This document shows, piece by piece, positions 11,965 through 14,329 of a stretch of 21,109 bases of DNA. A model generated the notes under the pieces. That model saw only the letters and a program-made list of their open reading frames with translations. It was not told the DNA's origin and made no database searches. Source of the stretch: a virus. Both the position numbers and the translations under genes were made by a program. How positions within the stretch are numbered: position 1 is the stretch's first letter; each line of letters starts with the position of its first letter. The stretch is taken from positions 1-21,109 of IMG/VR virus record IMGVR_UViG_3300022187_000295; one strand, written 5' to 3'.

Positions 11965-12942
11965 TTACGCTTCTTTGATACCTACAGCCGCTTCAGGTCT
12001 CAATACTCCGTGACCCATGCTGTATTTAGCTACCATTAACGTACCTTGTCTTCTAATGTCGTACTCTTTTTCAACAGCTAAATCCATTAGCTTAACAGTT
12101 CCTACTGCTGAAGGGTGAGATACAAGAGCAACGTAGTTAGATAGGTCTACCGCTTGAGGGTTAGAGCCACCTGCTGTTGCTGAACCTTGTTCTACACCAG
12201 AGTTAACATTAGACGATACAAAGTGAGCTACAGGTACTAATTCAATACCTGCAATTTTAGTAACTCTACCTTCAGCGATTGAACCTGAACCACTAAAATC
12301 AACATTAATCGCATTAGTTGCGTTTGCTAATTTGTAGTATTCTTCCAATCTCATAAAGCATTTTCTGCCTTCTGAAGGAACGTAGTTAGCGTCTAATTGT
12401 TTTGCCGCCGCAAACAAACTATCAATCATAGCATTAGCCGCAGTTGCGTCTGTTGCTGAAGCGATTGAAGTGTTTGTTAGTACAGTCCCAGAAGCATATC
12501 CACTGTCAGATACGTTTGCTGAAGCCTGTGCCGCTTGACCAATAGTTTGTAAGATGTGCTTATCTTTAGTAAAAGCTAAAGCTCTTCCTATTTCTTGTGA
12601 ATACGCACTTCTTACGTCATAATGGTTTTTTGCCTCCTCGATATTCGATAAGAATACAGATGAGATTAAAAGGTCATTAATTGTAATAACCTTTTCGTTG
12701 TGGTTTACATCAGAACCAGTTATTTCAGTACCTGCTGTGTGGTAAGAAGAACCAACTCTACCCATTACTGGGAAAGTTGCTGATTTTCCAGAAGCAATGC
12801 TTCTAGTCATATCTGCACCTGCTGTTTTTGAAGCTCTATCAAATGAAGTAATAACTTCACCTGCGAATACTTTTAGAAACAGAGCGTCTTCTGAACCACC
12901 TGCATTTACTCGTCCAACTGATACTGGACTTGCATTTGCCAT
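11965..12942 (-). CDS. Major capsid protein, T7 gp10A-like
   Basis: The 325-aa protein (T7 gp10A is 345 aa) has the HK97-fold shell protein signature of this family. Landmarks are ALFLKVFAGEVITSF (T7: ALFLKVFGGEVLTAF), SIASGKSATFPVMGR (T7: SISSGKSAQFPVLGR), NHYDVRSAYSQEIG (T7: NHYDVRSEYTSQLG), a HPSAVGTVKLMDL stretch and a C-terminal AKYSMGHGVLRPEAA. A strong Shine-Dalgarno (AAAAGGAAACACT then ATG) precedes it, and the 139 bp upstream carry no gene. I see no slippery heptamer near its end, so a gp10B-type frameshift product is not indicated. A hairpin follows immediately. Confidence 0.97.
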   Translation of the reverse strand: MANASPVSVGRVNAGGSEDALFLKVFAGEVITSFDRASKTAGADMTRSIASGKSATFPVMGRVGSSYHTAGTEITGSDVNHNEKVITINDLLISSVFLSNIEEAKNHYDVRSAYSQEIGRALAFTKDKHILQTIGQAAQASANVSDSGYASGTVLTNTSIASATDATAANAMIDSLFAAAKQLDANYVPSEGRKCFMRLEEYYKLANATNAINVDFSGSGSIAEGRVTKIAGIELVPVAHFVSSNVNSGVEQGSATAGGSNPQAVDLSNYVALVSHPSAVGTVKLMDLAVEKEYDIRRQGTLMVAKYSMGHGVLRPEAAVGIKEA

Positions 12943-13081
12943 AGTGTTTCCTTTTGTTATGACGTTAGTTTATAAAAGCCTCTTCAATTAATTATTTAGT
13001 CAAGATTGTCCCTCGCAAGGGGTCAAGTTATTTGGCTAATTAAAGTTGGCAGTTGCCACACATGAGTGTTGCACAACTATT
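12943..13081 (-). promoter_or_regulatory. Non-coding leader upstream of the capsid gene
   Basis: This 139-bp stretch is the longest gene-free segment of the window. On the minus strand it contains a short GC-rich hairpin (CCCT-TGCG-AGGG, about 13012-13023) flanked by two CTTGAC copies, a TGGCA/TGCCA inverted repeat near the upstream end, and the Shine-Dalgarno AAAAGGA just before the capsid ATG. The 19-bp promoter-like motif found elsewhere is not recognisable here. In T7 the same place holds phi10. Calling it a regulatory leader is inference. Confidence 0.45.
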
Positions 13082-13321
13082 TTAGTTACAGTTCCACTTT
13101 CTTAAAGCTAATGCTTTTCTAGTGGGTTTTCCGTTTTTAGACATAGCTCCTTTTACTCCGCTCATTCTCGCACAGAAACTCTTTTTTCTTCCTGCCGCTC
13201 TTGAACCTGCTTTAGGATTGCCTGTGACAGGAGCTTTTAAGTTATGTCCTTTTCTTTTAAAAAAAGCCCTTCCTCTAGCATTTAAGCCACCAGAAGGACT
13301 TTGATATTTTTTAGCAACCAT
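13082..13321 (-). CDS. Small strongly basic protein (79 aa), DUF6321-like
   Basis: The 79-residue protein starts MVAKKYQSPSGGLNARGRAF, contains SRAAGRKKSFCARMSGV, and ends KPTRKALALRKWNCN. This pattern is familiar from small phage proteins annotated DUF6321; I cannot confirm this by search. It has 21 Lys/Arg and no Asp/Glu, and two of its three Cys lie in the FCARM and WNC segments. It has no membrane segment. Its ATG overlaps the stop of the 48-aa gene (TAATG, 13321). The place between scaffold and capsid and the extreme charge suggest a nucleic-acid-binding or capsid-associated protein, but no function is known to me. Confidence 0.85.
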   Translation of the reverse strand: MVAKKYQSPSGGLNARGRAFFKRKGHNLKAPVTGNPKAGSRAAGRKKSFCARMSGVKGAMSKNGKPTRKALALRKWNCN

Positions 13322-13467
13322 TATGCTTTCGCAGTTTTGGCGGCACGTTTGAATTGTTTAGCAGTAGGTCTACCTTTTTGTCCTGCTTTTCGCATCTTCT
13401 CACCTGAACCTGCTTTAATTCTAGCACGTTTCTTATGAATGTTGGCGTATAATCCGTTCTTTGCCAT
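13321..13467 (-). CDS. Tiny basic protein (48 aa)
   Basis: Read directly: ATG at 13465-13467, TAA at 13321-13323, protein MAKNGLYANIHKKRARIKAG followed by SGEKMRKAGQKGRPTAKQFK and a short RAAKTAKA tail. It has 16 Lys/Arg and one acidic residue. Small proteins with a GLYANIH-x-KR-x-RI start are familiar from marine phages. It overlaps both neighbours by one base (TAATG at 13467 and 13321), which supports it as a real, translationally coupled gene. Function unknown; DNA or RNA binding is inferred from charge. Confidence 0.8.
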   Translation of the reverse strand: MAKNGLYANIHKKRARIKAGSGEKMRKAGQKGRPTAKQFKRAAKTAKA

Positions 13468-13571
13468 TATGCTTTTTTCTTCTTATTCATTATTTTTGCT
13501 TTTAAAGCGGCAGGTAATCTTTTCTGTCCACCTTTTAATGTTTTAGTTTTCTTTGTTTTCTTTCCGTACAT
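13467..13571 (-). CDS. Tiny basic protein (34 aa)
   Basis: ATG at 13569-13571, TAA at 13467-13469. The protein is MYGKKTKKTKTLKGGQKRLP followed by AALKAKIMNKKKKA, with 14 Lys/Arg and no acidic residue. It is preceded by a strong Shine-Dalgarno (AAAAGGAAACATA then ATG), almost the same leader as that of the capsid gene, so high expression is likely. It follows the scaffold gene by 20 bp and is coupled by TAATG to the 48-aa gene. Function unknown. Confidence 0.78.
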   Translation of the reverse strand: MYGKKTKKTKTLKGGQKRLPAALKAKIMNKKKKA

Positions 13572-13591
13572 TATGTTTCCTTTTAGTTGGT

Positions 13592-14329
13592 TTATAAATC
13601 TGAGTTAGATAATTTTTCTTGAACCATTGCTTGATACGCAGGGTCTTTCTGGTATCTGTCATCACTCATAGCTCTTGTAACTTCAGCCCAAGACTTGTAA
13701 CCATCTTGTCCTGTAATTGTGCCTTTACCTTCTACGAGTTTTGGTTCACTACCATTAGCTTTTTCAAATTTTGCTTTTAATCCTACGACTGCTAACTTTG
13801 CAGTTTCTATATCTTTAGAATTAACTGCTGTATTGTATGCAGTCTTTTCTTGTTCAGACATATTCTCTGCCGCCCAGTTAGACATTTCTGCATAAGCATC
13901 AGTACCACCAACCATTTCTTTTATAGAGTTGGCTTGTTGGTCAGCGATTGCTTTTTGACCTTCAATAAACTGGTTTACATAATCTTTAGGTATACCTGCT
14001 TTTTCTAATGCTTCGTATGATTTAGCATCTAACTCACCCTTTTCATTATACTCTGTTGCTAGGTTATCCATATTTAAACCTGCACTCTCAACTGCTTTTT
14101 CAGCAATCTCTAAATCAGATGTTTTAGTTTCTGTTTTAGGAGTTTCTTCTTTGGGTTCTTCTTGTTTGTTGTCACCAAGTTTCTTTTCTAACTCTGCATA
14201 AGACTTTGCTAAATCTTCAACACTGTTGAATTTTTCAGGTAAGCCTTCAGGTTTACTTTGTGTAACATTTTCTTCTACTGGCTTTTCGCTAGTAGTTTCT
14301 TCTTGTTTTATCTCTACTGTTTCTACCAT
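13592..14329 (-). CDS. Capsid assembly scaffolding protein, T7 gp9-like
   Basis: This 245-aa acidic protein (rich in Glu, Lys, Thr) has the stretch PEGLPEKFNSVEDLAKSYAE at residues 28-47, typical of gp9-type scaffolds. A disordered Glu/Lys/Thr-rich region (55-75) and predicted helices follow. In T7 gp9 fills the procapsid core during shell assembly and leaves before packaging. The C-terminal basic/helical part (SWAEVTRAMSDDRYQKDPAY...) would bind the capsid protein. The gene lies nine bases after the portal gene and before the capsid block, as expected. Confidence 0.93.
   Translation of the reverse strand: MVETVEIKQEETTSEKPVEENVTQSKPEGLPEKFNSVEDLAKSYAELEKKLGDNKQEEPKEETPKTETKTSDLEIAEKAVESAGLNMDNLATEYNEKGELDAKSYEALEKAGIPKDYVNQFIEGQKAIADQQANSIKEMVGGTDAYAEMSNWAAENMSEQEKTAYNTAVNSKDIETAKLAVVGLKAKFEKANGSEPKLVEGKGTITGQDGYKSWAEVTRAMSDDRYQKDPAYQAMVQEKLSNSDL

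Follow-up and report, generated by a model that had tools for sequence, protein, structure and literature searches.

Small basic proteins encoded between the scaffold and capsid genes of a pelagiphage: candidate head-internal proteins with embedded relatives in T4-like phages

The head of phage T4 contains the small, basic internal proteins IPI, IPII and IPIII at about 360 copies each (PMC9026906), and lysines of the T4 internal proteins touch DNA phosphates (PMC3012670). The T4 prohead protease cuts after L/I-X-E (PMC9026906, section 2.5). The polyvalent proteins, as outlined by Iyer et al. 2017 (PMC5512222), are late phage proteins of several domains for which packaging and processing have been proposed, the protease being a fused metallopeptidase.

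The three proteins described here resemble IPI, IPII and IPIII, and the gp22/gp67 core fragments, in being small and basic and in the head location proposed for them below. Forms of two of them embedded in longer proteins of T4-like phages would also share prohead-protease processing, as predicted from a sequence motif. The T4 internal proteins carry a short N-terminal targeting propeptide on a single protein, whereas here the module, or bead, is the downstream part of an often multi-bead precursor; in podoviruses it is a separate gene without propeptide. Searches of Pfam, PHROG, NCBIfam and PDB returned no match between the T4 internal proteins and the small proteins, which, judged by sequence, are not members of that group. 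Unlike the polyvalent proteins characterised in PMC5512222, the beads are basic, 40-80 aa long and without a recognised enzymatic domain, and the protease proposed for them is the prohead protease; SNF2 ATPases are common to both (see locus L081 below).

The window, i.e. the whole stretch of virus DNA analysed, is the 21,109-base IMG/VR record IMGVR_UViG_3300022187_000295. Along the 2.5 kb that were compared, its head region shares 96% identity with Pelagibacter phage HTVC131P, a Pelagivirus of the Autographiviridae. The virus is thus a Pelagivirus relative of HTVC131P, and its hosts are SAR11 bacteria. On the minus strand the gene order is portal, scaffold, three small genes, capsid and tail tube, with the following features:

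13592..14329, minus strand: scaffold (capsid assembly) protein; PF05396, E 1.2e-20; phrog_1052, E 6.1e-67
13574..13584, minus strand: ribosome binding site, the 11-mer AAAAGGAAACA just ahead of the ATG that starts the 34-aa gene
13467..13571, minus strand: 34-aa basic protein, first of the cluster, MYGKK...LKGGQKRLP...KKKKA; open reading frame
13321..13467, minus strand: 48-aa basic protein of the phrog_16028 family, GLYANIHxKRxRIKxGSGEKMRKxG; PHROG match
13082..13321, minus strand: 79-aa basic protein, DUF6321 (PF19846); Pfam match
11965..12942, minus strand: major capsid protein; PF21703, E 8.1e-90

The initial annotation had placed three very basic, translationally coupled ORFs between scaffold and capsid, and all three are present on the minus strand at the positions listed. 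A recount agrees with its figures: the 34-, 48- and 79-aa proteins hold 14 + 16 + 21 = 51 lysines and arginines and 0 + 1 + 0 = 1 acidic residue in 161 aa, and the 34/48-aa and 48/79-aa junctions are both TAATG overlaps. The ribosome binding site of the first gene, which had been described as nearly identical to that of the capsid gene, is the same 11-mer, AAAAGGAAACA, repeated before the capsid ATG (12945-12955, minus strand). T7 is not known to have genes between 9 and 10.

HTVC131P (gp33-35), HTVC201P and Eistla each have the whole trio annotated. By Nei-Gojobori counts dN is below dS in all nine comparisons of the three genes with these phages, including 3 of 3 for the 34-aa protein, and the 48-aa gene differs from that of HTVC201P by 10 synonymous and 0 non-synonymous changes. 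Annotated relatives together with dN<dS rule out spurious ORFs; the three small ORFs are real, conserved and under purifying selection. Conservation of the complete trio, which the initial annotation had left to a survey, holds for these three phages but not for HTVC019P, which is 84% identical in this region and has neither the 48-aa nor the 79-aa gene. These two genes are therefore accessory, and probably dispensable. Among the 28 Pelagibacter phage records that match this region, comparison of the lists by hand gave DUF6321 in 12 and the 48-aa family in 18. At the same place HTVC019P encodes a different, 43-aa basic protein (L496, 1295-1426); this basic family, GTSRPKSKSTIS, replaces the 48-aa gene in some pelagiphages, a further case being HTVC200P (L499, 2918-3052), where it adjoins a cysteine-free DUF6321 gene.

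For the 34-aa protein, 37 relatives were found in IMG/VR and no match in the protein-family libraries. Two other searches were also negative: tblastn of phages was run with the low-complexity filter on, so that masking is the probable cause, and a text pattern applied to ORFs collected earlier was too strict. The other two proteins fall into catalogued families that are widespread and have no assigned function. The 48-aa protein is a full-length member of phrog_16028 (E 7.5e-26, profile positions 1-47 of 50), a family with matches in 101 phage records; mean column identity over 58 members is 73%, and 53 of 57 aligned relatives are 63-96% identical to the window protein. The 79-aa protein scores 74.1 bits against the Pfam gathering cut-off of 28.5 for DUF6321 (profile positions 2-72 of 72) and belongs by score to phrog_4689 as well; here it is a stand-alone gene. 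DUF6321 has matches in 546 of 50,697 phage records, mostly cyanophages. The initial annotation had said that a histone-like head component would be new for the group, which has to be corrected in one respect: the families are known, occur in hundreds of cyanophage and pelagiphage records, and are missing from some close pelagiphages.

AlphaFold2 models, built from alignments that include the window proteins, show two helices for the 48-aa protein (58 rows; mean pLDDT 87.0, pTM 0.60) and three for the 79-aa protein (72 rows; mean pLDDT 90.2, pTM 0.71). At least two of the three small proteins are thus predicted, with good model confidence, to fold as small helical units. A fold search with the 48-aa model gave no solved chain that reached Z 2, and structure searches with the DUF6321 model gave no similar solved fold. 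The latter did match 12 predicted viral proteins with E values no higher than 0.001, of which seven bear the name DUF6321, and Foldseek returned two weak PDB matches, one a ribosome entry (E 5.6, meaningless by itself). A PDB sequence match to 8q05_Z (CsLinker chain, E 0.0019) consisted of two weak low-complexity stretches and was set aside. PADLOC and NCBIfam searches gave no match. The initial annotation had raised the idea of a histone-like head component. HU, H-NS and the protamines are likewise small and basic, but Pfam, NCBIfam, PDB sequence and fold searches connect none of the three proteins to them by family or fold, and membership of a histone-like family was rejected.

Two features of these families are recorded in passing. 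The 52-aa member of the 48-aa family in Roseobacter phage CRP-810 (L008, 6001-6159) is labelled 'ribonucleotide reductase A subunit', a label that matches in S-B28 and similar records overlap too; it is probably a copied annotation error. Among 260 distinct DUF6321 domains, the number of cysteines is 0, 2 or 4, with a single exception (L037, one cysteine). The two main cysteines are both present in 109 of 134 rows, both absent in 24, with the second cut off in one, and the last cysteine is usually the C-terminal residue. This suggests disulfide or metal pairing as a hint only, the independent changes being too few: the tree shows one change of the first cysteine and two of the last, which has no statistical weight, and a disulfide was not adopted on this basis.

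Outside the pelagiphages the two families recur near head genes. The T7-like cyanophage S-RIP1 has both DUF6321 and the 48-aa family between scaffold and capsid, P-SCSP2 has DUF6321 there and S-CBP1 the 48-aa family, while in P-SCSP1g the position is between capsid and tail tube; the scaffold-capsid or capsid-tail position recurs in several Autographiviridae genera. In CRP-810, with its SU10-type capsid, the 48-aa family lies near the capsid gene. Counter-examples are HTVC204P and HTVC034P, in which DUF6321 stands among a run of small uncharacterised genes near a DnaA-like gene. The two families tend to occur side by side: DUF6321 lies within 1 kb in 54 of 80 IMG/VR loci retrieved with the 48-aa family alone (the contigs of three of these loci, L018, L019 and L146, had turned up in an earlier scan as well), and four single ORFs contain both. 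A known head or terminase gene was found by single-sequence search in 30 of the 80 loci. A protein-family scan of 100 of the 128 selected long ORFs near the 48-aa gene in the other 50 loci added 23 phrog_2 large terminases and 17 P22-type portals. For cysteine-free DUF6321 (n=80 loci), a T7-type portal gene lies at most 700 bases downstream in 27; in the remainder no such portal was detected despite enough sequence (46), the sequence was too short (6) or the portal was elsewhere (1).

T4-like phages carry the same modules in another form. DUF6321 is there the C-terminal part of longer proteins encoded near gp15-gp16-gp17 or near tail-fibre/terminase genes, and the 48-aa family is embedded in longer proteins too. 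The sequences that precede embedded DUF6321 are mostly unrelated to each other, and they usually end with a Glu 2 or 4 residues ahead of the first Trp and a hydrophobic residue two positions before the Glu. This motif was scored as [LIVMF]xE and, in a strict version, as [LI]xE, with the other positions of the same proteins as background. The 104 embedded DUF6321 domains yielded 66 distinct contexts, of which 60 have the Trp anchor and 40 remained after removal of similar upstream sequences; three of the six contexts left out for want of the anchor (L022, L029, L023) fit the motif by eye. [LIVMF]xE is present in 50 of the 60 anchored contexts against 2009 of 25633 background positions (7.8%), and in 31 of the 40 non-redundant ones against 8.1%; the strict form is present in 14 of 40 against 4.2%. 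Binomial P values are 1.9e-26 (31/40) and 4.6e-10 (14/40), both nominal, as the phages are related. The motif is absent from 9 of the 40, and most matches use V, M or F, not the strict L/I of T4. Before the embedded 48-aa family it is found in 28 of 42 contexts against a background of 14.2%; this count includes 14 contexts with a Met within 12 residues, possibly stand-alone starts. The predicted cut product would begin within a few residues of the start of the stand-alone proteins.

Whole records, many of them fragments, were searched for the T4-type prohead protease family PF03420. Of the 18 IMG/VR records that have embedded copies 11 gave a match, among them every one of the six longer than 100 kb; of the 18 whose copies are stand-alone (17 from IMG/VR plus HTVC131P) 0 did so (Fisher P 1e-4). 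Because protease presence tracks phage type, this split agrees with cleavage by the protease but is not independent proof of it. By title or abstract, no literature was found on prohead-protease processing of such proteins in cyanophages. One of the longer proteins, a 2202-aa ORF (L081, 5641-12246), joins DUF6321 to SNF2/helicase domains and resembles injected polyvalent proteins.

Evidence from virions is available for the embedded forms. The sole DUF6321 domain of S-CREM2 lies in gp137, one of the 52 virion proteins in Table 3 of PMC10665884; its 4 unique peptides, which may lie inside or outside the domain, amount to a coverage of only 4.1%. That of S-SCSM1 lies in SSCSM1_29, whose GenBank label 'virion protein' presumably stems from the detection of 45 proteins in virions of this phage (PMC9602691). 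The DUF6321 protein of S-SZBM1, identified as S-SZBM1_192 by matching gene order and lengths, is absent from the text and from Table 1 of 30 virion proteins in PMC9146016. The embedded protein is thus listed in virions of two of the three cyanophages checked, as far as these tables and labels go. Two further sources were not counted: the main text on S-CREM1 reports 14 virion proteins without a mappable list, and the S-P4 DUF6321 protein is labelled 'structural, T4 GC0119' whereas the text of Sullivan 2010, which gives 41 virion proteins for S-SM1, calls T4-GC119 hypothetical. The literature searched contained no virion proteomics for a phage with the stand-alone proteins (searches of the P-SCSP1u structure paper and the P-SSP7 purification paper found no virion mass spectrometry) and no paper naming DUF6321 or the peptide GLYANIHAKR; searches for work on pelagiphage virion or internal proteins gave nothing on these genes among the matches listed. 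The early suggestion that the proteins could be packaged is in this way indirectly supported by the head-module location across several portal types, by the protease motifs before the embedded forms and by the cyanophage virion lists; S-SZBM1 counts against it.

We lean slightly towards the view that these are small, folded, basic head-internal proteins, encoded as separate genes in podoviruses and released as beads by a protease in T4-like phages, which work like the T4 internal proteins. The three basic proteins would be produced alongside those of the head and end up inside the prohead, among the DNA. In T4-like phages, DUF6321 and 48-aa beads would sit on longer precursors, probably cut by the prohead protease at (L/I/V/M/F)-x-Glu before each bead; in podoviruses without the protease, each bead would be its own gene, with a start that almost coincides with that of the cut bead. 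Inside the head the lysines and arginines would bind DNA and may aid its packing or stability, and the beads may leave with the DNA at infection. Neutralisation of DNA charge as such, one of the roles first considered, stays a conjecture, the sequences being too conserved for a generic polycation; the strong conservation of the 48-aa family argues against a purely electrostatic role. By simple arithmetic, the three proteins at 360 copies each would offset some 22% of the charge carried by the DNA of a 40.9-kb genome, and at 50 copies 3%.

The same conservation (63-96% identity in 53 of 57 relatives) exceeds the needs of a mere counter-ion and would also suit packaged proteins that act mainly after ejection, in the manner of T4 IPI and Alt, against one particular target in the host or its defences, with the charge serving only for travel with the DNA. 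That the set is accessory and swapped, with a different 43-aa basic protein in HTVC019P, and that the L081 bead is joined to an SNF2-type helicase, a kind of domain found in the injected polyvalent proteins of PMC5512222, point the same way. We nevertheless think ejected effectors unlikely, given that the proteins have no PADLOC match and no known fold, and that a target peculiar to one host would fit poorly with families conserved in phages whose hosts are unrelated.

Proximity to scaffold, portal and terminase genes would equally be expected of late assembly helpers (adaptors of scaffold, portal or terminase) that bind DNA or head proteins and are gone before maturation, without being packaged. 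This reading is quite improbable in our estimation: embedded relatives are listed in virions, and the unrelated portal types fit a shared partner such as DNA better than any one head protein. Small size, basic charge and conservation are typical of RNA binding as well, and the weak Foldseek match to a ribosome entry, meaningless by itself as noted, could be placed on the side of RNA-binding or regulatory proteins that act on transcripts or ribosomes in late infection, with the location beside the capsid gene merely setting the expression level. Such a role, which leaves both the beads behind prohead-protease motifs and the virion listing unexplained, we consider very improbable. Should the preferred reading, head cargo, be true, DUF6321 and its 48-aa partner, which are recurrent unknowns of ocean viruses, would gain a first testable function; T7-like and T4-like phages would be using the same internal modules by two routes, and further virion cargo could be found by way of small basic modules behind prohead-protease sites.

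The set of modules may be wider. Between its scaffold and capsid genes P-SCSP2 carries five small ones, and besides DUF6321 three of them match beads of longer phage proteins (all E values from single comparisons): one matches L076 (62% over 60 aa, E 4e-20), one an EF-hand-like stretch of the 1195-aa ORF of L022 (58% over 26 aa, E 7e-7) and one L026 (85% over 13 aa, E 2e-5) and, more weakly, P-SSM2 gp114 (E 0.001). The L022 ORF also contains the 48-aa family and resembles a cytidylyltransferase weakly, with a score below the Pfam cut-off; the S-CREM2 virion proteins tabulated in PMC10665884 include a cytidylyltransferase. The shared beads would be DUF6321, the 48-aa family and probably the KPCGRQ, EF-hand-like and PSAYAN modules. 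A broader proposal, made tentatively and with doubt somewhat outweighing confidence, is that unrelated marine phages (T7-like, P22-portal-type, SU10-like and T4-like) share an exchangeable vocabulary of small virion-internal beads. Phages that lack the prohead protease would bring them into the head as products of separate small genes, and phages that have it as polyproteins which it cuts; in many abundant ocean viruses the beads would thereby make up a protein phase associated with the packaged DNA.

The segment between the DUF6321 gene and the capsid gene holds two hairpins (13010-13078 of the window, minus strand) kept by compensatory changes. In nine phages 126 of 126 cells pair, 6 of the 14 pairs change on both sides, and none of 500 shuffles reaches the covariation score; the single-sequence fold of the region is unremarkable (z -0.58), and Rfam gave no match. 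The pattern of the first hairpin occurs in at least 120 IMG/VR stretches. Among the matches listed, its inner stem, present in 10 different versions, pairs fully in 119 of 120; wherever a capsid gene was found (118 loci), the distance from the hairpin to the capsid ATG downstream is 108-127 nt. The hairpins have the look of an RNA element in the capsid leader that has not been described before, and the element is also present in HTVC019P, which has neither the 48-aa nor the 79-aa gene.
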